From NCBI GenBank assembly GCA_018667995.1, contig JABIQT010000368.1:1-10382 (forward strand): a stretch of DNA of 10,382 nt, given 5' to 3'. Shown piece by piece: positions 1-10,382 of the stretch. Numbering within the stretch: position 1 is the stretch's first letter; each line of letters opens with the position of its first letter. Source of the stretch: Candidatus Latescibacterota bacterium. GTDB taxonomy: Bacteria; JAAXHH01; JABIQT01. Below the pieces are notes generated by a model, which ran no database searches, was not told the origin of the DNA, and saw only the letters and a program-made list of their open reading frames with translations. The position numbers and the translations under genes were made by a program.

Positions 1-92
1 CCGACACCATCCTCGACCAGACGATCCGGCTGTACGACGAAATTGTGGCTGACGACCGGCAGACCGGCATATCTGCAAGGAGTCAGGTTTGA
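1..92 (+). CDS. C-terminal end of an upstream gene (partial, 5' end outside window)
   Basis: An open frame whose first full codon is at position 3 runs to a TGA at 90-92. It gives 29 residues containing the segment DQTIRLYDEIVADD. The TGA overlaps the TTG start of the next gene in a TTGA junction, the same kind of coupling seen at later junctions, which is the main reason to believe this frame is translated. An 'LYDEI'-like helix near the C-terminus is common in GT4-type glycosyltransferases, and such a gene would suit this locus. The fragment is too short to assign, so the product is left unknown. Confidence 0.55.
   Translation, partial: DTILDQTIRLYDEIVADDRQTGISARSQV
77..82 (+). promoter_or_regulatory. 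Shine-Dalgarno AAGGAG supporting a TTG start
   Basis: AAGGAG lies 6 nt before the TTG at 89. No ATG or GTG close by is as well placed. The first in-frame ATG, at 125, would cut into the first membrane segment of the sugar transferase. This site therefore decides the unusual TTG start. Confidence 0.7.
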
Positions 93-1528
93 GCCTGCGT
101 GCCTTCGGTGGGGTCTGGGTGGCGATGATTCTGGACGCATTCGCAACCGGAGCTGCCTTCATGGTAGCCTTCTGGCTGCGATTCACCCTGACCTTCCTCC
201 CCGATCGCCTGGTTCCATCACTGGAAGTCTACATTCGTTTCGCTATCGTGGTTGGTGTCGTCAGTGTCGTCGCCCTGCAAGCCTCGGGGGTCTACAGGAA
301 GGGCAATGCATCACTAGAGTGGGATGACATTGCGTCCATCTTTCGCGGTTCGGCGCTGGCTTTCCTTCTTGTGGCGGCCATCAGCTTTCTCATTCGCGGC
401 GGCGTCTCCGGCGTCGAAGAGCAAAGCTACTCGCGGCTGACGATCGGTATCTCGTGGATTCTGGCGCTGCTGTTTCTCAGCGGCTGGAGGCTCTGCTGGC
501 GCACCTTTGAGCGTGTGCTGTTCGGGCAGGGCTTGGGAATCACAAACGTGCTTGTTGTGGGAGTGAACCCGACAAGTGTGAGATTCCAACAGGCCGTCGA
601 CGCCATGCGCCACTCACGTTACAAGGTGGTTGGCTTCGTGGCGGACGAAGAGAATGGGGAAGACGCTGACGTTGGCGAACTGACGATTCTCGGATGTTTG
701 GCGGAGTTACCTGTGATCTTGCACGAGGTGAGAATACATCAGATGGTGGCAGCCCTGAACAAGCCGACGTCCGATGATATCGCGCGCCTGATGAAACTGT
801 GTGCGCAATCAAGTATCGAGTTCCGCTCCATCCCCGACGTGCCGAGTCTGTTGTTGTCACCTGCGCGAGTTGAAGAGGTCGCCGGGTTTCCATTGTTCAC
901 GCCTGAAGAAGGACTGTCACGCCTTCGCAGTCAGGTCGCCAAGCGAAGTCTGGACCTGCTTCTGTCTACGGTTCTGATGGTGATAGGTGCTCCCCTCGGA
1001 CTGTGTCTCGCTGTGCTGGTCTCCTGGTCCTCAAAGGGCACCGTCTTCTTTCCGCAGGAGCGTGTGGGCAAAGACGGCCGTCGATTCAGGATGTATAAAT
1101 TTCGTTCGATGGTACACGACGCCGAAGAGCAGCTCGAGGAGCTGCGCATGAAGAACGTTGCCGGTTCAGATCCTGTCCTGAGGTTGCGCAATGATCCCCG
1201 GGTGACGCCAATAGGTCGCTTCATGCGCAGTTTGAGTCTCGATGAACTGCCGCAACTGATCAATGTCATCAAAGGTGAAATGAGCCTGGTGGGCCCACGT
1301 CCGCACGTGCCCTATGAAGTGGACCACTACAGCGAGTGGCACAAGCGTCGACACGATGTGCTGCCGGGTATCACCGGACTCACTCAGGTGAGTGGCCGCC
1401 GCGCTCTCGCATTGGATGACATGATCAAGCTGGATATCTACTACATCGAGAATTGGTCTGTCTGGCTCGACCTACGAATCATGCTGCAGACCATACCGAT
1501 TGTTCTGAGCGGTCGTGGGGCGTATTAA
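89..1528 (+). CDS. Polyprenyl-phosphate phosphoglycosyl transferase (WbaP/WcaJ-type initiating sugar transferase)
   Basis: This 479-residue inner-membrane enzyme is predicted to transfer a sugar 1-phosphate from a nucleotide sugar to undecaprenyl phosphate, the first step of O-antigen or exopolysaccharide synthesis. About four hydrophobic segments lie at residues 10-32, 48-66, 88-103 and 118-134. A Rossmann-like domain follows (NVLVVGVN at 153-160, to about 270). A further membrane helix at about 288-312 leads into the bacterial sugar transferase domain. That domain has KFRSM (337-341), the catalytic Asp-Glu pair D385-E386 within SLDELPQL, GEMSLVGPRP (396-405), PGITG (426-430) and a typical end near 465. 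The order and length match full-length WbaP/WcaJ-like proteins. The start is TTG with AAGGAG 6 nt upstream, overlapping the preceding stop. The sugar donor (glucose, galactose or another) cannot be read from the sequence. Confidence 0.93.
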   Translation: MSLRAFGGVWVAMILDAFATGAAFMVAFWLRFTLTFLPDRLVPSLEVYIRFAIVVGVVSVVALQASGVYRKGNASLEWDDIASIFRGSALAFLLVAAISFLIRGGVSGVEEQSYSRLTIGISWILALLFLSGWRLCWRTFERVLFGQGLGITNVLVVGVNPTSVRFQQAVDAMRHSRYKVVGFVADEENGEDADVGELTILGCLAELPVILHEVRIHQMVAALNKPTSDDIARLMKLCAQSSIEFRSIPDVPSLLLSPARVEEVAGFPLFTPEEGLSRLRSQVAKRSLDLLLSTVLMVIGAPLGLCLAVLVSWSSKGTVFFPQERVGKDGRRFRMYKFRSMVHDAEEQLEELRMKNVAGSDPVLRLRNDPRVTPIGRFMRSLSLDELPQLINVIKGEMSLVGPRPHVPYEVDHYSEWHKRRHDVLPGITGLTQVSGRRALALDDMIKLDIYYIENWSVWLDLRIMLQTIPIVLSGRGAY

Positions 1529-1564
1529 GATCTCATCCAGAGTAACCACTTCCAGGATGCCCGT

Positions 1565-2539
1565 ATGATGGCTAAAAGTGGACAAAAAATACTACACATG
1601 ACTTTCCACAAATGCGGAAGTCAATGGGTGCGCGATGTGCTGACCTCTCCCGAGATCGTGGCACACAGCAGCGTGGGTCTGGGCAACTCGGGTGTTGATC
1701 TGCAGCGCGAAACATGGCCTGCGCAAGATCCCGGAACCCTGGTCGGACCGGTTTACAATGGATCTGCGCAGGATTGGCTGACGCAAAAAGAAACAGGACA
1801 GAAAGCTGTCGTCGTCTTGCGCGACCCACGCGATCGACTCGTGTCGATGATGTACTCATACACATACAGTCACACGCCGAACAATGTAACTGCGGCGATT
1901 CGTGGGCCTCTGCTATCTCTATCAGAGCGGGATCGTTTGCTGACGTGTCTATTCGATAGCCGCCACATTGAGCACGCCATGAGATCTTGGGCTGGAGGCA
2001 TAGATGATTCCTTTGTGACCAAGTACGAGTCGTTGAGCGCTGATGCGCTACATGAATTCGCGGCAATCGTGGATTTTCTAGAGTGGAATATCCCGCCCGA
2101 AGTACTTGCTGCGGCAGTTTCACGTCACTCATTCGAGAATCGCAGTGGCCGGAAACCGGGTGACATCAACATTCATAGCCATTACCGATCAGGTGTCGCG
2201 GCCGGCTGGCGGCAGCATTTTGATCGTGACCTCGGCAGACTGTTTGAAGCATTGTTCCCGGAGCTACTCAGCAGAATGGGATATGAAGAGGACTGCTCCT
2301 GGTTCGAGGCGCTGACAGCGGCGGCGGAAACACTACAGGCAGGGGAAGTTTCAGGAGAGCACGAAGCCCGTGCAGAGGTCACTCGTATGGCGGAGAAACT
2401 CCACGTCATCGAGATGGAATGCCAGAAGCGCGGCACGGTTATCGAAGAACTGCAGGAAGTGGCTCAACAGCGCCTTCAGCTCATCGAGGAACTTGACTTC
2501 GCCTGCAAGCAACTCCGCACCACCGAAGGTGCAGGATGA
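1565..2539 (+). CDS. PAPS-dependent sulfotransferase with C-terminal coiled-coil tail
   Basis: This 324-residue protein is predicted to move sulfate from PAPS to a carbohydrate acceptor. The 5'-phosphosulfate loop is FHKCGSQW (14-21), a variant of the usual PKSGTTW with Cys at the Ser position. The 3'-phosphate site is VVVLRDPRDRLVS (82-94), keeping the Arg and Ser. A late YRSGVAAGWRQHF (207-219) matches the family's RKG..G.W..F nucleotide-binding loop. The catalytic domain ends near residue 245. Residues about 265-318 are Glu/Gln/Leu-rich and look like a coiled coil, with LHVIE and two VIEEL/LIEEL motifs, which ordinary sulfotransferases lack. There is no signal peptide, so it is probably cytoplasmic, acting before export. 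ATG codons at 1565 and 1568 are both possible; AGG at 1554-1556 is a weak ribosome site. The stop overlaps the wzm start (ATGA at 2536). Confidence 0.87.
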   Translation: MMAKSGQKILHMTFHKCGSQWVRDVLTSPEIVAHSSVGLGNSGVDLQRETWPAQDPGTLVGPVYNGSAQDWLTQKETGQKAVVVLRDPRDRLVSMMYSYTYSHTPNNVTAAIRGPLLSLSERDRLLTCLFDSRHIEHAMRSWAGGIDDSFVTKYESLSADALHEFAAIVDFLEWNIPPEVLAAAVSRHSFENRSGRKPGDINIHSHYRSGVAAGWRQHFDRDLGRLFEALFPELLSRMGYEEDCSWFEALTAAAETLQAGEVSGEHEARAEVTRMAEKLHVIEMECQKRGTVIEELQEVAQQRLQLIEELDFACKQLRTTEGAG

Positions 2540-3330
2540 TGATGCAACTGCGCGTGCCCTTGGCCAGGTGGGGGCTGCTATCGGAGTTGGTTCGGAGGGA
2601 ATTCGGGGCCAGTCAACGAGGCACACTAGGCGGTGGCGCTTGGTTACTCATACAGCCCCTGTTTCTTCTTGCTGTCTACACCTTTGCATTTGGTGTTGTG
2701 CTGAGAGCGAGATGGGGAGGGGAGGGAGACGTGGAGACCTATGGGTTCATGCTCTTTGCCGGTCTGATCGTGTTCAATCTGTTTGCCGAGTGCTTTCGGA
2801 GTGCACCAACTCTGATTACTGACAATCCGAACTTCGTCAAGAAGGTTGTTTTCCCTCTCGAACTGCTCGCCTGCGTCTTGGCCATCGCATCGACGGGGCG
2901 GGCGTTCATCAGCCTGTGCGTGTGGCTTGTCAGCTATACTCTTATCGTCGGCTTCCCCACTGTTTCAGTACTGTATGCCCCTCTGATTCTTCTGGCCTTC
3001 TTTCCCGCTTTGTTCGGTGTAGGATGGCTCTTTAGCGCACTCGGCACTGTCACGCGAGATCTCAAGCAGATTGCTGATTTGGTTGCCCACGCGATGCTTT
3101 TTGTGACACCCGTGTTCTACAGTATTGACATCATTGGTGGAGTCCATCAGAGCATTCTGTTGCTCAATCCGCTGACATTCATCGTCCAGCAACTTCGACT
3201 CGTTTTACTGGTTGGCGCGACGCCTGATCTTTTGGGACTGGCCATCTACTTTGCTTCTGGTGTCTTCTTCAGCGCCGCCTGCTATCTCTTCTTCCGTCGT
3301 CTTCGACCGATGTTCGCAGACCTCATATGA
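2536..3330 (+). CDS. wzm: Polysaccharide ABC exporter permease (Wzm/TagG-like, ABC-2 type)
   Basis: This 264-residue membrane protein is the predicted channel subunit that moves a lipid-linked polysaccharide across the inner membrane, paired with the Wzt ATPase encoded at 4091. The N-terminal amphipathic segment LLSELVRREFGASQRGTLGG (14-33), followed by WLLIQPLFLLAVYTFAFGVV, is the classic Wzm/TagG/KpsM entry. Hydrophobic segments lie near 34-55, 70-88, 106-126, 127-141, 145-170, 184-200 and 233-253. The C-terminus, LRPMFADLI, is typical. Length matches the family. Three consecutive ATG codons (2536, 2539, 2542) could start translation; 2536 gives the ATGA overlap with the sulfotransferase stop, with GAAGG at 2525-2529 as ribosome site. 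A GT2 gene separates it from wzt. Confidence 0.92.
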   Translation: MMMQLRVPLARWGLLSELVRREFGASQRGTLGGGAWLLIQPLFLLAVYTFAFGVVLRARWGGEGDVETYGFMLFAGLIVFNLFAECFRSAPTLITDNPNFVKKVVFPLELLACVLAIASTGRAFISLCVWLVSYTLIVGFPTVSVLYAPLILLAFFPALFGVGWLFSALGTVTRDLKQIADLVAHAMLFVTPVFYSIDIIGGVHQSILLLNPLTFIVQQLRLVLLVGATPDLLGLAIYFASGVFFSAACYLFFRRLRPMFADLI

Positions 3331-4094
3331 ATGTCGACAGCAAAACTCCAGTAGTGACAATTGCGGTGCCAAGCCTCAATCAGGGGCGATATCTCACCGA
3401 TGCGCTTGAGTCCATTTTTTCGCAGGAAGTCCCTGTCGAAGTATTCGTTGCTGACGGGGGATCGACCGACACATCAGTAGATGTTATCCGGCAATGGGAG
3501 CCACGCCTGTCAGGCTGGAGAAGTCATCCCGACAGTGGGCAAGCGGCGGCAATCAATGAGTCCATCGAAAAGGGCACTGCTCCGTATGTGGGGTGGCTGA
3601 ACAGTGATGACTGTTACCTTCCCGGAGGCTTGCGGGTCCTGGTCGATGCACTGGAGGCTCACCACGAGTGGCCCGCGGCTTACGCACTGGCGGAGGACGC
3701 GGATTCGAGCCTGACAAACAGATCAAACGTCTGGGTCGAGCCCTTCAATGAACGGCGTCTGGCGGTGCGATGTTTCATTTCTCAGCCAGCGACACTCATT
3801 CGTCGATCGGCCTGGGAGGCAGTTGGCGGTTTGAACGAAGATTTTGAGCTGGCGATGGACTACGATCTCTGGTGGAGACTGTACCGTCGATTTGGACCTC
3901 TCGGATTTGAAGAGGAACTGGTGGCTCTGAATCGCAGTCATGACAGTTCCAAGACCAGGACGCAGAGAAAGCGACACTATCAGGAGGCGATCCAAGTCGT
4001 ACGAAGTCACTATGGCAGAGTGCCGTGGAAATGGTGGCTCTACTGGGTTTTTGCAGTTTGGTTTCGGTCCTTCTTTGCGGCGCAGAAACGATGA
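3327..4094 (+). CDS. Family 2 glycosyltransferase
   Basis: This 255-residue GT-A-fold enzyme is predicted to add a sugar to the lipid-linked glycan at the cytoplasmic face of the inner membrane. The N-terminal strand and loop VTIAVPSLNQGRYL (10-23), VADGGSTDTS (41-50) for nucleotide binding, the metal-binding acidic motif WLNSDD (90-95), QPATLIRRSAWEAVGG (153-168), AMDYDLWWRL (176-185) and a late H205 are all in standard GT2 order. A Trp-rich hydrophobic end (about 234-250) may touch the membrane. It starts with ATGA overlapping the wzm stop and ends with ATGA overlapping the wzt start, so it is embedded between the two exporter subunits and should be made in step with them. Donor, acceptor and linkage are unknown. 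Confidence 0.92.
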   Translation: MNVDSKTPVVTIAVPSLNQGRYLTDALESIFSQEVPVEVFVADGGSTDTSVDVIRQWEPRLSGWRSHPDSGQAAAINESIEKGTAPYVGWLNSDDCYLPGGLRVLVDALEAHHEWPAAYALAEDADSSLTNRSNVWVEPFNERRLAVRCFISQPATLIRRSAWEAVGGLNEDFELAMDYDLWWRLYRRFGPLGFEEELVALNRSHDSSKTRTQRKRHYQEAIQVVRSHYGRVPWKWWLYWVFAVWFRSFFAAQKR

Positions 4095-5404
4095 GCGACG
4101 CAGCCATCACAGTCAGGGGAGTCAGCAAGACATACTCTCTGCCGCGCAGTCCGTGGGCTCGCCTTTCCAAGGCAATGCTGCCCGGAACTGCCAGTCGCGA
4201 GCCGGGAATACGAGCATTGCACGACGTGTCCTTCGAGGTGAATCGCGGCGAAGCCGTAGCAATCATCGGTCGCAATGGCAGCGGCAAAAGCACGCTGCTT
4301 GAGATCATCTCGCGGACCTTGATGCCGTCTGCCGGGGAAGTGCATGTCAGTGGGCGAATCACCGCGTTACTTGAACTGGGCAGTGGTTTTTCTCCGGACT
4401 ACACAGGGCGGGAAAACGTCTTCATGAATGGCCTGCTGATGGGCCTGACGCGTACCGAGCTAGAGAATAGATTCGACGATATCGTCGCATTCGCGGAAAT
4501 CGGCGACGCTATCGACAGGCCTGTCCGCACCTACTCCACTGGTATGCTCGTACGTCTGGCATTCTCAGTCCAGATCGCCTTGGAACCAGATGTGCTGGTG
4601 GTTGACGAGGCACTCAGCGTGGGAGACTACTTCTTCCAACAGAAGTGTTTTGGTCGTCTGCGACAGCTAAGAGATCAAGGACTGACTCTGGTTTTGGTAT
4701 CCCATGACATGGGCACCGTAAAGTCTCTGTGTGCAAAGGCCCTGTATCTCCGGAGAGGAGAGGCCATCTGTTTCGGTGATACTCGCAGCGTCGTATATGA
4801 GTACATGTCCGAATTGAACGCACCTCTCACGCAGGCGGACTCCATTTCCGTCGCTCCGGAGCCAACTGGCGAGGTCGAGAGGTCGACACTATCCAAGATC
4901 AAGCAGGGGGCACTCTGGTCGGTCGCGGATGATCTCGAAGCAGACAGACACTTGTTGGCCGTCAATGTTCTGGGAACCGATGGTCAACCAGTCAGCCATG
5001 TTGGTATGGGAGAGACCGCCTTGGTGCAGGTTTGTTTTAGAACGCCTGCGGGGACGTCTGGACACATTTCACTGGTTATCAAGAACCGCTATGATCAGAT
5101 CGTGACGAGCACCGGGACGTATCTGCTGGGGGCTGCTCCACAGAGTTCCAGTGGGGCGTTGTTCGCCACGGTCACTTTCGAAATCGACTTCATGCTGGAA
5201 GCGGGAGCCTACTCTCTTAATGTTGGCTTCGGCGTGCCCGTTGCTGCCAACCAAGGAAGGCAACTCGATCGGAGTGACTGGTTCGGACCACTGCATGTAA
5301 AGTGGGATTATGAGACGAATCGCGCGCCTTTCCTCGGGATGTTTGGTCTGCCTGCCCGCATCCACGATGCGGCTGAACCCCGCGTATCAGAGGGATCTGT
5401 ATGA
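4091..5404 (+). CDS. wzt: Polysaccharide ABC exporter ATPase with C-terminal glycan-recognition domain (Wzt)
   Basis: This 437-residue protein is the predicted ATPase that drives Wzm. The nucleotide-binding domain has Walker A GRNGSGKST (60-68), the polysaccharide-exporter signature YSTGM (148-152), Walker B VLVVDE (168-173) and the switch His in VSHD (H205). After a linker (about 241-285), residues about 286-425 form a beta-rich Wzt-type C-terminal domain ending DWFGPLHVKWDYE and APFLGMFGLPA. In E. coli O9a and O8 such domains bind the chain's modified non-reducing end, so this exporter probably recognises a terminal modification. The frame extends upstream to 4025, but ATG 4091 gives MSDAAITVRGVSKTY, a normal family N-terminus, and an ATGA overlap with the GT2 stop. 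The downstream end also has an ATGA overlap (5401). Confidence 0.94.
   Translation: MSDAAITVRGVSKTYSLPRSPWARLSKAMLPGTASREPGIRALHDVSFEVNRGEAVAIIGRNGSGKSTLLEIISRTLMPSAGEVHVSGRITALLELGSGFSPDYTGRENVFMNGLLMGLTRTELENRFDDIVAFAEIGDAIDRPVRTYSTGMLVRLAFSVQIALEPDVLVVDEALSVGDYFFQQKCFGRLRQLRDQGLTLVLVSHDMGTVKSLCAKALYLRRGEAICFGDTRSVVYEYMSELNAPLTQADSISVAPEPTGEVERSTLSKIKQGALWSVADDLEADRHLLAVNVLGTDGQPVSHVGMGETALVQVCFRTPAGTSGHISLVIKNRYDQIVTSTGTYLLGAAPQSSSGALFATVTFEIDFMLEAGAYSLNVGFGVPVAANQGRQLDRSDWFGPLHVKWDYETNRAPFLGMFGLPARIHDAAEPRVSEGSV
5389..5395 (+). promoter_or_regulatory. Shine-Dalgarno AGAGGGA inside the end of wzt
   Basis: AGAGGGA lies 5 nt before ATG 5401, which itself overlaps the wzt stop as ATGA. A good ribosome site plus the operon's usual junction form argues that translation restarts here, even though the product is not recognisable. 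Confidence 0.5.
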
Positions 5405-5613
5405 GTCTGGCGACACGATCGAAGGCGGAGCATGAAGAGACGAGGAGATGTGGCGAGGGTTGTCGTAGGATGACGGCGACGGCTGCTGGCTCCGCAATCA
5501 TGGATTCAAGAGGAATGGGCGGATCCAGTGCAGGTGACCGTTATTCTCTCTGGCTTGGCACGACTCTAGTGAATGGGCTCGAATTACTGTTTCTCCCGGG
5601 GATGACGATTTAG
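5401..5613 (+). CDS. Small hypothetical ORF directly after wzt (70 aa, possibly degraded)
   Basis: The 70-residue frame starts at an ATG that overlaps the wzt stop (ATGA) and has AGAGGGA 5 nt upstream, so its start is well supported. The product is not: the first 50 residues are a low-complexity mix of Arg, Gly, Ala, Ser and several Met, followed by a hydrophobic end (YSLWLGTTLVNGLELLFLPG, 47-66). No family is recognised. The frame ends at TAG 5611, twelve bases before a second small candidate gene in another frame. It could be a genuine small gene, the broken start of a longer gene now split by frameshifts, or a start codon without a functional product. Confidence 0.35.
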   Translation: MSLATRSKAEHEETRRCGEGCRRMTATAAGSAIMDSRGMGGSSAGDRYSLWLGTTLVNGLELLFLPGMTI

Positions 5614-5624
5614 TGGAAGCGGGA

Positions 5625-5762
5625 ATGGCACACATTCCGGACCTTGATTGGTACTGGTGGCTCCTCATAGTGGTAGGGCTGATTTCGCTGTTTAGTGTTT
5701 ACAGATGGTTCAGCAGTGACCGTCAGAACGATCCTCCCGACGATATCTATCCCCTGTACTGA
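5625..5762 (+). CDS. Candidate 45-aa single-pass membrane protein
   Basis: ATG 5625 to TGA 5760-5762 gives 45 residues: a short N-terminus ending in LDWYWW, one hydrophobic helix (about 9-27, WYWWLLIVVGLISLFSVYRW), then a polar tail with DPPDDIYPLY. The layout (aromatic belt, roughly 18-residue hydrophobic core, basic residue after it, acidic Pro/Tyr tail) looks like a real single-pass protein and not random sequence. GGAAG lies 5 nt before the ATG. The same frame is open back to 5538 and reads plausibly there (EWARITVSPGDDDLVEAG), so this may be the end of a longer, frameshifted gene. No family is recognised. It stops 4 nt before ATG 5767 of the second sulfotransferase. Confidence 0.42.
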   Translation: MAHIPDLDWYWWLLIVVGLISLFSVYRWFSSDRQNDPPDDIYPLY

Positions 5763-5766
5763 CTCG

Positions 5767-6645
5767 ATGTCGCAAACTGACGAAAACGGAGATTCCTCCA
5801 AAGAGGAAATCACAGAGATGCAACCACTCGCGTCTTCAAATCAAGAGAATCAGGCTCTCCAGCACGAGTATCAGGAGCAGTTGCGCTCGAGTGGTTCCGT
5901 ATCTCGAAGACACTGTTGGGTCGTTGCTGCCCCGAAGTCAGGGTCGACCTGGCTTACCTGGTTACTTGAACAGTGCCTTGGTTGGCCCAAAGCGGTCCTG
6001 CTTCCCTGCTACGAACGCCGAGAGCAGGAAATTGACCTGCGGATGCTCGATAGCCACGCGGAGAAGGCGGATTTGATTACACCGAATCAGCACTGCCGCT
6101 TTAGCCTGGCAACGGAGGCCTTCATCGGCAGACCCGGTGTCAAGGTCATTCTGCAAGTCCGCGATCTCTTTGACATGCTCGCCAGCAAGATCGATCACAT
6201 CGAGAGGGAGGGACCGCTCTTTCCGATGGCGTACATGGACATGGAATCATGGCATCAGCTGGAACACAGTGCTCGAACAGATTTCATCATCGATATGATC
6301 GCGCCCTGGTATTTCAATTTCTATGTCAGTTGGATGAAATCAGGTTTCGTTGGAACAGATCGCGTACTGCTCGTCGAGTACGGCAAGCTCACCGGGCAAC
6401 CCGCAACTACGTTGGCGGAGGTCTTCGCCTTCCTGGACGTCTCGGTCGAACGGCAGCAAATCGACAAGGCGTTGCTGGACTCGAAGACATACCGTGACGG
6501 GACCGACGCCGACTACTATGTCACACGCTTCAATCGAGGAACTCCGGGGCGAGGCCCCGAAGTCTTCAGCAAGGCTCAAGTCGAGCGGGTGAAATCTTTC
6601 GCCGCATACTACCCCGGTGTCGACTTCGGTCCCCTGGGTCTGTGA
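5767..6645 (+). CDS. Second, divergent PAPS-dependent sulfotransferase
   Basis: From ATG 5767 this protein has 292 residues. WVVAAPKSGSTWL (51-63) contains a textbook 5'-phosphosulfate loop. VILQVRDLFDMLASKIDH (127-144) is the 3'-phosphate region, keeping Arg132 and Ser140. DRVLLVEYGKL (198-208) followed by AEVFAFLDV is the usual late beta strand and helix, and FNRGTPGRG (255-263) matches the family's final nucleotide-binding loop. Residues before 45 are Gln/Glu/Ser-rich and probably flexible. The start is uncertain: GTG 5695 would overlap the small membrane ORF; ATG 5767 follows it closely but lacks a clear ribosome site; ATG 5818 has AAGAGGA 10 nt upstream and would give 275 residues. It is not a recent copy of the sulfotransferase at 1565, and likely sulfates a different position or sugar. 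The acceptor is unknown. Confidence 0.85.
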   Translation: MSQTDENGDSSKEEITEMQPLASSNQENQALQHEYQEQLRSSGSVSRRHCWVVAAPKSGSTWLTWLLEQCLGWPKAVLLPCYERREQEIDLRMLDSHAEKADLITPNQHCRFSLATEAFIGRPGVKVILQVRDLFDMLASKIDHIEREGPLFPMAYMDMESWHQLEHSARTDFIIDMIAPWYFNFYVSWMKSGFVGTDRVLLVEYGKLTGQPATTLAEVFAFLDVSVERQQIDKALLDSKTYRDGTDADYYVTRFNRGTPGRGPEVFSKAQVERVKSFAAYYPGVDFGPLGL

Positions 6646-6723
6646 TGATTCATACCATTCAGGCCACATCGGTCAACCATAGGCGTGGCGTTTTCAGTGC
6701 CATCGAGCAGGAAGTCTCCAGGC

Positions 6724-7857
6724 GTGCATCAGATGTTTGACACGACGTGGGGCGGAGCGACTGTCGCTGGTGCCGTGACTCTGGCGATCATCATGTTCAT
6801 CTGCGGACGGGTTTCCGTCACACGGTCATCCTCTGTGATGTCACTCCGTCGCAGGATCGCCGAGAAACAGAGTGCCGAAAGACTCGGCAAGTTTGTCAGC
6901 GATCCCCAGGAAGTCCAAGCGCTGGCGCAGGCATATGCGGATCCCCGGAAGGCTGAGAGCGAACTGCCGCAATACCCGTGGGATATCAAATTGACACCGA
7001 CGCCCTTCGTAGGCGTCATGCCGATGCGGCAGTCACGTGAGCATGTACAGGTCAATGACCAACACTTTCGATCACCTACAAGCATTCCCATTGAAAAACC
7101 GGCGGGTGAGGATCGGGTGTTTCTCGTTGGAGGTTCGACCGCATTTGGTGTTGGCGTGCCAGATGATGGTACGGTTGCAGTCTTTCTCGAGGCTCACCTC
7201 GATCAGGTTCGCAACCGAGCGAGCGTCACGACCGCGGCGTGCCCCGCGTGGGCATCGACCCATGAGCGGATACTCATTGAGAACGTCCTGGCCGTGATGG
7301 CGCCAGATGCGGTCGTTTGTCTATCAGGCTTCAACGAGGCTCACTGGGCGTGGAATCGTAGGAACGTCCGCTGGTTCAATACCTATGGTGACGAACACTT
7401 CAACGAGTGCATCAATTTTTCACGAGCGTTTGTCGGTCATAGTCGTATCCAGGAATCTCAGCCACAACTGGATACCGAGCCGTCTCCGCAGGAGGTCGCA
7501 GACGTGTTGTCTGCGAACGTGCACCTCGCAGCTGTAGCACTGACCAGAACTGGATGCCCCAAATATGTGTTTGCGCTTCAGCCCTGCATGCCTGTTACCG
7601 AAAAGGAGCTCACAGAGCGAGAAGCCACGCGATTCGCCGTTTGGCATCCGGTACAGGTGGAGTACTACAGAGCGTGCTACGAGAGTATCAGAGATTCGCT
7701 TGGCGACCTCGCAGGCAGGATGGACGGATTCCAGTTCGTGGACTGCAGCAGGGTCTTTGATGATCTCTCATCACAAGACGAAATTTTCATCGACGGCAGT
7801 CACTGCGGTGATCGAGGCAACCGGATGGTTGCCGAACGAATCGCCGGGGATTGGTAG
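6724..7857 (+). CDS. Membrane-anchored SGNH/GDSL hydrolase-like protein
   Basis: From GTG 6724 this protein has 377 residues: an N-terminal membrane anchor (about 11-30, GAVTLAIIMFICGRV), a spacer, then an SGNH-type domain. Block I is VFLVGGSTAFGVGV (132-145) with likely nucleophile S138. GFNE (202-205) stands in for the block III Gly-x-Asn-Asp. The C-terminal FIDGSHCGDRGNRMVAERI (355-373) supplies the Asp357/His360 pair. Family members are esterases, deacetylases or acyltransferases. In this setting, removing or adding acyl groups on the glycan is a reasonable inference, probably on the outer side of the inner membrane. Start choice: the frame opens at GTG 6685 without a ribosome site, GTG 6724 has AGGAAG 9 nt upstream, and ATG 6733 is also possible. 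The fold is fairly sure; catalytic activity is not shown. Confidence 0.8.
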   Translation: MHQMFDTTWGGATVAGAVTLAIIMFICGRVSVTRSSSVMSLRRRIAEKQSAERLGKFVSDPQEVQALAQAYADPRKAESELPQYPWDIKLTPTPFVGVMPMRQSREHVQVNDQHFRSPTSIPIEKPAGEDRVFLVGGSTAFGVGVPDDGTVAVFLEAHLDQVRNRASVTTAACPAWASTHERILIENVLAVMAPDAVVCLSGFNEAHWAWNRRNVRWFNTYGDEHFNECINFSRAFVGHSRIQESQPQLDTEPSPQEVADVLSANVHLAAVALTRTGCPKYVFALQPCMPVTEKELTEREATRFAVWHPVQVEYYRACYESIRDSLGDLAGRMDGFQFVDCSRVFDDLSSQDEIFIDGSHCGDRGNRMVAERIAGDW

Positions 7858-7880
7858 GTAGCGTGGCGACAGCAAATCAT

Positions 7881-7885
7881 GGGAG
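7881..7885 (+). promoter_or_regulatory. Shine-Dalgarno GGGAG deciding the radical SAM start
   Basis: GGGAG lies 5 nt before ATG 7891. The in-frame ATG at 7879 would place this site inside the coding region and has no good site of its own, so 7891 is preferred. Confidence 0.55.
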
Positions 7886-7890
7886 TCCTG

Positions 7891-9078
7891 ATGCGTAAGA
7901 GACTCGTTTACAACATCGAGATCAATACGACCTGTAATCTCGTTTGCCCTTCATGTCCAAATGGGTACGTGTCGCAGTGGCGACGGGGGCAGCGTATGTC
8001 CGTCGAGTTGTACGAGAGAATCCTTTCAAAGGCTCAATCTGAATCTGACATAGAGGCCATCTACCTCTATGTGTGGAATGAACCTCTCCTCCATCCCGAA
8101 CTACCCGAGATACTCCAACTCTCGGCGGAGCGCGGTGTGCGACCGAGTTTGAGTACGAATCTCAATCTGATACCAAAATGGATGCGTGAGGTGCTGAGCG
8201 CTGATCCGACGAGTATTCGGATCTCCATGTCAGGGTTCAAGCAGGACACATACGGGATCACTCACGCGGGAGGAGATGCCGACGAGGTCAAGAAGAATAT
8301 GGGAATACTGGCCGACCTTCATGAGGAGGTCGGTTCACGTACCTCGATCGAAGTCCTGTTCCACAGGTATGCCCACAATCTTGCCGACGAGGCGCCGCTG
8401 CGTGACTTCGCCCAGAAGCTGGGATTCAGTTTCAGCTCAATCTGGGGGATCATCATGCCGATCGAGAAGAATCTTGAGATGATTCAACAGGAGACTGTCG
8501 CTCAGGAGAGTGAGCCTGCAAAGTCACTCTCCGGGCTTGTGCTTCTCAATTCCAGGGACATCCTACCGCAGTTGCAGCACAACCCGAGTACCAATTGCAG
8601 CCTACTGGACGATCAAGTGACGATCGACGCAGCGGGAAACACCGTTCTGTGCTGTGCCGTCAGCGACTTCGACCAAGGCCGGATCAGCTCATTCGTCGAC
8701 ACGTCGCTCGAGGAAATCGTCGGCTTGAAGAGTCGGCACGACTTGTGTGGCCCGTGCATGTCCAACGGCCTTCACGATTTTGTTACCTACAGCGGCGGCA
8801 AGTTCGATGAGTTCGCCCTGCAACGCCTTGGAGATTTGGCTACAGAAGGTGTGGCTGATGCGAAGGAGGTCATCCGATTCCTGACCGATACAGCCACATC
8901 GTTATCCAAACAAAATGAGACTCTGCAGTCGGCCTGTGATGAGCGTCTTCATGTGATTGAAGAACTGGCGACAGCGGCGGACGAGCGTGGCGTGTTGGTT
9001 GAGAGACTTGATGCCGAGTGCACATCGCTGCGAAAGCACATCGGCGAACTGGAAGCGGGACGGCCCAATGAATCGTGA
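7891..9078 (+). CDS. Radical SAM protein with SPASM-like C-terminal cysteines and coiled-coil tail
   Basis: This 395-residue protein has CNLVCPSC (C15, C19, C22), the CxxxCxxC loop that binds the [4Fe-4S] cluster for S-adenosylmethionine cleavage, close to the N-terminus as in SPASM-type enzymes. YLYVWNEPLLHPEL (58-71) is the GGEP-like SAM contact, in the form WNEP. A second cysteine set (C236, CC 254-255, C286, C289, with CGPC) follows VTIDAAGNTVLCC and suggests an auxiliary cluster. From about 325 to 388 the chain becomes helical and charged, with ERLHVIEELATAADERG resembling the tail of the sulfotransferase at 1565. In a polysaccharide operon it might modify a sugar or a carrier, but radical SAM/SPASM proteins are diverse and no substrate can be named. 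Its stop overlaps the next gene by 11 nt. Confidence 0.87.
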   Translation: MRKRLVYNIEINTTCNLVCPSCPNGYVSQWRRGQRMSVELYERILSKAQSESDIEAIYLYVWNEPLLHPELPEILQLSAERGVRPSLSTNLNLIPKWMREVLSADPTSIRISMSGFKQDTYGITHAGGDADEVKKNMGILADLHEEVGSRTSIEVLFHRYAHNLADEAPLRDFAQKLGFSFSSIWGIIMPIEKNLEMIQQETVAQESEPAKSLSGLVLLNSRDILPQLQHNPSTNCSLLDDQVTIDAAGNTVLCCAVSDFDQGRISSFVDTSLEEIVGLKSRHDLCGPCMSNGLHDFVTYSGGKFDEFALQRLGDLATEGVADAKEVIRFLTDTATSLSKQNETLQSACDERLHVIEELATAADERGVLVERLDAECTSLRKHIGELEAGRPNES

Positions 9079-10382
9079 TACGATGACCGGCTCACCGTTC
9101 TTTTCGATCGGTCTTACCACCTACGACAGAGTCGATCTGCTCCGCGAGAGCGTACAATCCGTACTGGCGCAGTCCTTCGGTGATTTTGAGATCATCATTG
9201 GAAACGACGGCTCGGACAGGACACTTACCAGCGCCGATCTACAAACCGATGATCCCCGTATTCGGATCGTCAACAACGAAGAGACGCTTGGCCAGGTCGG
9301 TAACTGGCGTGCACTGCTTGGCGCTGCACGCGGCACATACTTCGGGTGGATCGCAGATGATGATCTGTACGCCCCGGATCTCCTGAAGGCCTGCCATAAG
9401 GCTTTGGAAGGGCACGGACGCCCCGAGGGAGTGTTCACCGCTTTCACGCTCTTGGAAGGAACCGACAGCACGCCACCCAGTCCAGGATTCTCCGGAAAGA
9501 TAGATGTGTGCTCCGGCCACGACCTGGTCACAGGATATTTGCTGGACGAACTGCCGCTACTGGGCAATATGGGTTTCTTTCGTCCGAATTTCCTGAAGAA
9601 CTGCGTTCCGTGGGAACAGATGGAGTGTCCTGGTATTGCTCTGTTTAGAGAATATCTGTTCGTCCTTGGCAGCATAGGAGCCGAGAAAGTCTTGTATCTG
9701 CCAGACCCCTTGGTCATCTACAGAGATCACGCCGATTCATGGGGCAGCTCAAATACGAACGTGGCACAATACATCGAAGCCGGTCAGTGGTTGGTGGAGC
9801 AAGGCAGCCACATGCTGCAGGCCATTGCGGACCCTCGTGTTCGATGGCAGATGACGCTCCTCCTGTTCCATCTTGCTCTTCGACAACTCGTGCAGAAACG
9901 AAAGAACGCAAGCTTCAACCTCGATGTTCGGGGTCTCATGCGTGATTTTCTGAAAGCTGATGAATCAAGTCCGGCTGACGAGCTCTCTCGACGTGTTTAC
10001 CTGGCCCTTAGCGGCCAGTATGCAGACGCTGAGGTCAGTCGAATTGAGAAGGAAGTTGAGATACATGAGAAGGAACTTGAGATACATGAGAAGGAAGTTG
10101 AGATACATGAGAAGGAACTTGAGATACATGAGAAGGAAGTTGAGATACATGAGATGGGCGCGGAGGCCAGCAAGCGGAGTCTAAAGGTTGAGAGCCTGAC
10201 CGAGGAGTCGGGAGGCCTTCAGGATCAGCTGGAAGCCACCTCCGCAGAGTTGAAAGCGATCTCCCTGGAGGCAACGAGGCGCCAGGATCAGTTGGAAGTT
10301 GCCACGGAGGAGGCGGAAAACCGTCAGCAGATCATCAACAAGATCCAGAAGACCAATCAAGAGTTGATCCAAACGATTGACC
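9068..10382 (+). CDS. Family 2 glycosyltransferase with long repeat-bearing helical tail (partial, 3' end outside window)
   Basis: The frame from ATG 9068 stays open to the window end (438 codons visible). Residues 11-220 form a GT2 domain: FSIGLTTYDRVDLL (12-25), IIIGNDGSD (42-50) for nucleotide binding, WIADDDLY (94-101) as the metal-binding acidic motif, and a later FREYLF (193-198) followed by YRDHADSW (218-225). A helical region (about 230-325) leads into a very charged tail: five copies of the heptad EKE(V/L)EIH at 327-361, then a Glu/Gln/Leu-rich stretch with QDQLE repeated 21 residues apart (385 and 406), still running at 438. The start overlaps the radical SAM stop; GCGGGA lies about 7 nt upstream, and ATG 9083 is a weaker alternative. 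Acceptor and donor are unknown. The unseen end may hold a further domain. Confidence 0.9.
   Translation, partial: MNRDTMTGSPFFSIGLTTYDRVDLLRESVQSVLAQSFGDFEIIIGNDGSDRTLTSADLQTDDPRIRIVNNEETLGQVGNWRALLGAARGTYFGWIADDDLYAPDLLKACHKALEGHGRPEGVFTAFTLLEGTDSTPPSPGFSGKIDVCSGHDLVTGYLLDELPLLGNMGFFRPNFLKNCVPWEQMECPGIALFREYLFVLGSIGAEKVLYLPDPLVIYRDHADSWGSSNTNVAQYIEAGQWLVEQGSHMLQAIADPRVRWQMTLLLFHLALRQLVQKRKNASFNLDVRGLMRDFLKADESSPADELSRRVYLALSGQYADAEVSRIEKEVEIHEKELEIHEKEVEIHEKELEIHEKEVEIHEMGAEASKRSLKVESLTEESGGLQDQLEATSAELKAISLEATRRQDQLEVATEEAENRQQIINKIQKTNQELIQTID
10046..10150 (+). repeat. Five in-frame 21-bp tandem repeats encoding EKE(V/L)EIH
   Basis: Five adjacent 21-bp units are identical except for one base that alternates GTT, CTT, GTT, CTT, GTT, coding Val, Leu, Val, Leu, Val. 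The array is therefore 2.5 copies of a 42-bp higher-order unit. It is exactly in frame in the glycosyltransferase gene. The next codons (GAG ATG) look like a decayed continuation. The identity between units points to recent slippage or recombination, and copy number may vary between strains. Confidence 0.95.
10220..10298 (+). repeat. Two copies of a 16-bp QDQLE-coding motif 63 bp apart
   Basis: CAGGATCAGCTGGAAG at 10220-10235 recurs at 10283-10298 with one change (C to T). The spacing is 63 bp, or 21 residues, exactly three heptads. The DNA between is not obviously repeated, so this looks like an older, decayed internal duplication in the glycosyltransferase tail. Confidence 0.6.

Follow-up and report, generated by a model that had tools for sequence, protein, structure and literature searches.

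Why would two enzymes with unrelated catalytic domains, encoded in one polysaccharide gene cluster, end in the same kind of coiled coil? The question is raised by a 10,382-base contig, the whole stretch of DNA analysed here and called the window below, in which a sulfotransferase (ST) and a radical SAM enzyme both carry such a tail.

Gene cluster and catalytic domains

The window is a single co-directional polysaccharide cluster (Table 1). The start codon of the Wzm-type permease overlaps the stop of ST (ATGA), and the radical SAM stop overlaps the start of the next glycosyltransferase (9068 onward). The carbohydrate-binding domain of the Wzt-type ATPase (PF14524, Wzt_C) scores 35.4 bits against a cut-off of 30.4. 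An unlisted reading frame of 49 residues with a GTG start and one probable membrane span (5613–5762) lies between wzt and the second sulfotransferase. On the sister contig, an O-antigen-ligase/polymerase-like gene and a GT4-like glycosyltransferase are found upstream, both roles being assigned by eye from the sequence.

Table 1. Genes, domains and tail segments of the window
Feature	Position (nt)	Strand	Basis or remark
WbaP-like sugar-phosphate transferase	89–1528	+	
Sulfotransferase ST	1565–2539	+	
ST catalytic domain (Sulfotransfer_1), residues 1–246	1565–2302	+	PF00685; end at GYExDxxW motif
ST C-terminal coiled-coil tail, residues 267–323	2363–2533	+	coil scan, AF2 helix, 14-residue repeat
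ST shared segment, residues 273–318	2381–2518	+	alignment to radical SAM tail
Wzm-type ABC-2 permease	2536–3330	+	PF01061, 1.2e-19
GT2 (first)	3327–4094	+	
Wzt-type ATPase with Wzt_C carbohydrate-binding domain	4088–5404	+	PF00005, PF14524
Second sulfotransferase	5695–6645	+	start more likely ATG 5767
SGNH/GDSL-like protein	6685–7857	+	
Radical SAM enzyme	7879–9078	+	
Radical SAM/SPASM-like catalytic domain, residues 1–318	7879–8832	+	PF04055; conserved cysteines
Radical SAM C-terminal coiled-coil tail, residues 323–393	8845–9057	+	coil scan, alignment, nulls
Radical SAM shared segment, residues 340–385	8896–9033	+	alignment to ST tail
Second GT2	9068 to contig end	+	helical tail incomplete
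Second GT2 helical tail	9998–10381	+	broken off by contig end

ST matches PF00685 at 1.1e-14 (54.9 bits against a cut-off of 22). Its PAPS-site motifs HKCGS and RDPRD are conserved, and K16, G18, R86, D87, R89, D90 and S94 are invariant across six homologues. The radical SAM enzyme matches PF04055 at 2.2e-11 (44.7 bits), while no NCBIfam equivalog matched it at or above its cut-off. It has the CX3CX2C motif at Cys 19/23/26 and further cysteines at 240, 258, 259, 290 and 293, all invariant among five relatives; this combination of CX3CX2C with extra C-terminal cysteines assigns it a C-terminal Fe-S (SPASM/twitch-like) region.

The locus is nearly identical in two bins, G000 and G016 (Gemmatimonadetes MAG SI074_bin69), with 17 differences in 9,203 bases (window 1–9203 against L014 1890–11092), 14 of which fall within the first 185 bases. 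The sampled G+C of these bins is about 0.52 and 0.58, respectively, and their other sulfotransferase gene sets differ. The two bins were assigned to groups of different size. Probably the contig is foreign in one of the bins, or the locus has moved recently, and its host assignment is uncertain.

The coil shared by the two tails

ST residues 273–318 align with radical SAM residues 340–385 over 46 residues without a gap, with 17 identical residues and a BLOSUM62 score of 78. The original prediction had described an ungapped match of 19 residues between VIEELQEVAQQRLQLIEEL (ST 292–310) and VIEELATAADERGVLVERL in the radical SAM tail. Both peptides are present, and the match turned out to be stronger than claimed, growing from 19 residues to 46. 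The second peptide occupies residues 359–377 counted from the ATG at 7879, and the earlier numbering (355–373) is shifted by four because that count began at the in-frame ATG at 7891. The LHVIE motif, which had also been pointed out, does occur in both tails, but its copies lie on a different diagonal (11-residue offset) and are part of the internal repetition.

The score of 78 was matched in 0 of 10,000 plain shuffles. Shuffles that preserve the heptad register gave a mean of 39, and about 2 of 10,000 reached 78 (p about 2e-4), while p was 0.006 when the 14-residue register was preserved. Real coils served as a further null: among 464 pairs from 31 coil segments of other proteins, the maximum was 52 versus 78 here, and the best scores of the ST and radical SAM tails against these 31 segments were 36 and 46. 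Coils were scanned by a simple home-made heptad score, not by a published predictor. The DNA of the shared segments is identical at 66 of 138 positions and at 17 of 46 third codon positions, and therefore the two tails are no recent copy of one another. The idea of a shared module on two unrelated catalytic domains, without recent copying, is thus upheld by the alignment nulls together with the diverged DNA.

The module is about 46–58 residues long; its repeating unit is two heptads (14 residues), and its core is conserved and in part polar. Lags 14 and 28 are the two strongest internal periodicities in both tails. The register of the best hydrophobic stripe is the same in both, with the a/d residues MLICRILARILCL in ST and LNLCRILARVLCL in the radical SAM enzyme. 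Identity is 9 of 13 in the a/d core versus 8 of 33 elsewhere (Fisher p 0.006; within-a/within-d shuffle p 6e-4), though these p-values are somewhat weakened because the register was picked after seeing the data. The identical core residues include an odd C, R, A, R and C. Arg and Cys, two each here, are unusual in the core of a coiled coil. Since the a/d core has been kept while third codon positions are nearly fully diverged, the core is probably under selection, and its near identity likely reflects a common interface.

In the single-sequence AF2 model, ST 267–323 forms one continuous helix with block-mean pLDDT up to 93; the model is unreliable over the catalytic domain and usable for the tail helix only. 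In the radical SAM model the tail is an interrupted helix of low confidence, and the model as a whole is too poor for a search by fold. As helices, the two tails would measure 8.6 and 10.5 nm, and the coil stops 1 residue before the protein end in ST and 6 residues before it in the radical SAM enzyme. Simple g-e charge counting did not favour a hetero-pair over homo-pairs and is uninformative.

Specificity controls covered both bins in which the locus occurs (of 6.06 Mb and 7.1 Mb). When the ST tail was searched by tblastn in the 6.06 Mb genome it comes from (E limit 10), the radical SAM tail was the one match besides the ST tail itself (E 0.0013), and the reciprocal search likewise gave the ST tail alone besides the query (E 0.0035). 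In the second bin, the sole significant relative of each tail is the other, and the next matches have E-values of 0.44 and above. Taken by itself, the genome E-value is modest, since a match at E 0.003 or better turns up in about 0.5% of unrelated genomes (2 of 398). Chance is nevertheless very unlikely because the single match lies 6 kb off within this cluster and occupies the corresponding position in its protein. Two findings had been named as speaking against the original prediction, a lack of significant similarity between the tails and a motif common elsewhere in the genome; both were looked for and neither was seen. Judged from sequence, the ST and radical SAM tails are established as one module, appended to both enzymes, whose core was kept while the DNA diverged, and its sequence is a mark of common origin or common selection.

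The second GT2 had been proposed to end in a tail of the same kind. A long helical tail is indeed present (residues 311–438, broken off by the contig end), beginning with a 21-nt array and continuing as a more ordinary coil, but it is not supported as the same module. Its similarity to the radical SAM tail is at background (score 37, p 0.58 over the whole tail; p 0.92 for the second half). Similarity to the ST tail is marginal over the whole tail (p 0.03) and reaches p 0.002 in the second half, a split made post hoc. This link is weak, and it does not support the GT tail as a third copy. The stretch matching ST is the last 38 residues, where the contig breaks off, and more of a copy may lie beyond. 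The array itself (10045–10154) is a 21-nt tandem repeat of 5.2 copies with 95% match, coding for EIHEKE[VL], and is likely a site of length variation by slippage.

Distribution of the tails and related loci

Homologues of both enzymes stop at the end of the catalytic domain, and both tails are therefore add-ons. In six ST homologues the protein ends no more than about 15 residues from the GYExDxxW motif (ST residue 246), and three that were scanned have an N-terminal TPR region in place of the tail. Such TPR-bearing relatives of ST (L088, L092 and L093) may represent another scaffold for this enzyme family. In Ferrovibrio, Methylocystis and G680, the homologue of the radical SAM enzyme terminates around the position that corresponds to residue 318, or a few tens of residues beyond it, with no similar coil at the end. 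None of the six other sulfotransferases in the two bins has a coil tail. A coil ending of at least 35 residues was found in 3 of 9 proteins of the window, and in 1 of 197 ORFs of at least 250 aa from other loci, a set that includes spurious frames.

No genuine relative of the tail was found in about 480 sampled genomes, nor was the module found in plasmids and viral contigs, and a tail-profile search of solved structures gave nothing meaningful. A widespread 14-residue repeat module was rejected, as a strict two-unit DNA pattern occurred in 0 of 398 genomes and the tail profile matched nothing there but a SlyX-like protein and a frame in antisense. The tail family was found in this one locus alone.

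The closest radical SAM relatives found are from Alphaproteobacteria. For example, in Ferrovibrio (L006/L040) the genes after a relative with 38% identity encode a GT2-coil-sulfotransferase fusion and Wzm/Wzt. This fusion (L040:9917–12265, also in L006) is 782 aa long and consists of a GT2, a long coiled coil and a sulfotransferase. The Ferrovibrio locus thus resembles the window in having a radical SAM enzyme, a sulfotransferase, a GT2, a long coil and an ABC exporter. However, its coil lies between GT and sulfotransferase within one polypeptide and is dissimilar in sequence, and its sulfotransferase is only distantly related to ST. In G584 (L038), a radical SAM relative adjoins a sulfotransferase in a Wzm/Wzt locus, with coil-like segments on both enzymes, but these are N-terminal, dissimilar to each other (p 0.19) and dissimilar to the tails of the window. 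The original prediction had suggested looking for the module on other enzymes in related loci; it was not recovered there, the Ferrovibrio and G584 coils differing in sequence (p 0.19–0.83). What recurs in three loci is that a member of this radical SAM family occurs with a sulfotransferase and with coiled coils in the vicinity of an ABC exporter; the sample is small and hand-picked, and the Methylocystis and G680 relatives are without the association.

Further candidates were set aside. A Methylocystis methyltransferase with a C-terminal coil beside a radical SAM relative gave p 0.29 with the ST tail and a marginal p 0.007 with the radical SAM tail. Radical SAM relatives in other Pseudomonadota (G141, G269, G120, G230 and G094) lie in other loci, where the arrangement is absent. 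Apart from these, L051 (8577–12357) contains three tandem radical SAM relatives, each with N-terminal WGAxxxG nucleotide-binding-like segments in a sugar-nucleotide locus.

Possible roles of the shared tail

A common core is most simply a common interface, from which we infer co-assembly or a common partner. We propose, at what we consider slightly under an even chance, that the shared tail is an oligomerization or docking module that would co-assemble ST and the radical SAM enzyme at the Wzm/Wzt exporter. The appended coil would oligomerize or dock each enzyme, and the two would come together beside the exporter, on its cytoplasmic side, either through a heterotypic coil or as a mixed assembly around a common partner. 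Any one lipid-linked chain would then undergo both sulfation and the radical SAM step ahead of its export. The shared gene cluster and the overlaps of the ST stop with the wzm start and of the radical SAM stop with the GT start count for co-assembly. A more specific version, in which a polar Arg/Cys docking code joins ST and the radical SAM enzyme, possibly with the GT, in a dedicated tailoring complex at the polysaccharide exporter, is tentative.

Coiled coils with such roles have precedents. WbdD, WbbB, ORF7-O4 and ORF6-O7 are coiled-coil chain terminators of ABC-transporter-dependent O-antigens (PMC11231755, PMC3482155). In WbdD, the C-terminal region (residues 460–708) serves oligomerization (PMC3482155), and an oligomerizing coil lies in the region that recruits another enzyme (PMC3482155; PMC11231755). 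Like this group, the window combines a Wzm/Wzt cluster, whose Wzt has a carbohydrate-binding domain, with a coiled coil placed after a glycan-modifying catalytic domain, although the coils here are shorter than that of WbdD. Unlike in this group, two unrelated tailoring enzymes each carry one homologous short coil, and neither is a methyltransferase/kinase or a Kdo transferase. ST and the radical SAM enzyme are also without the separate membrane/polymerase-recruiting region that follows the WbdD coil, and because of this we do not claim membership in the WbdD ruler/terminator class. A survey of chain-termination chemistry to which PMC11231755 refers (Mann et al. 2019, Glycobiology) may list related cases. 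Coiled-coil docking domains of multi-enzyme assembly lines, in which short terminal helical modules on separate enzymes enforce assembly, belong to other pathways and pair complementary N- and C-terminal partners, whereas both tails here are C-terminal and homologous.

Each tail might instead only homo-oligomerize its own enzyme, as a homodimer or homotrimer, with shared ancestry and no contact between ST and the radical SAM enzyme; the tails could then possibly be WbdD-like spacers that set the distance from active site to membrane or polymerase. This alternative deserves serious weight, though we consider it less likely than co-assembly. WbdD trimerizes through its C-terminal helix, and the coil determines chain length (PMC3482155, PMC11231755); the orientation of catalytic domain followed by coil is the same, and a Wzt with a C-terminal carbohydrate-binding domain, as here, usually belongs to a system in which a terminal cap is recognised. 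However, two enzymes that only form homo-oligomers would have no need of one and the same core sequence, and the tails are short and without the extra membrane/recruitment region of WbdD.

It is improbable that the coil is an evolutionary hitchhiker, copied long ago between neighbouring genes by recombination and without joint function. Both tails do lie in one cluster and the module is absent elsewhere in what was searched, but retention of the a/d core with third positions at 17 of 46 points to a core that is probably selected. Convergence, in which restricted composition makes two coiled coils look alike, is very improbable: coiled coils are repetitive, and in 2 of 398 genomes the profile picked up a SlyX-like coil and an antisense frame with E at most 0.003, but register-preserving shuffles rarely attain the observed score (p about 2e-4), 0 of 464 coil pairs exceeded 52 (78 here), and the eight other coil-coil comparisons stayed at p 0.19–0.83.

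The presence of coiled-coil proteins marks glycan assembly of the ABC-transporter-dependent type. Each characterised case has a single coil on a single terminating enzyme, whereas here one coil family sits on two unrelated tailoring enzymes. The locus thus makes it possible to ask directly and cheaply whether a bacterial polysaccharide is sulfated and undergoes radical SAM chemistry within one protein complex. If co-assembly of ST and the radical SAM enzyme is true, the latter would be marked as a glycan-modifying enzyme, and the shared tail would be a docking-domain system for bacterial glycan modification.
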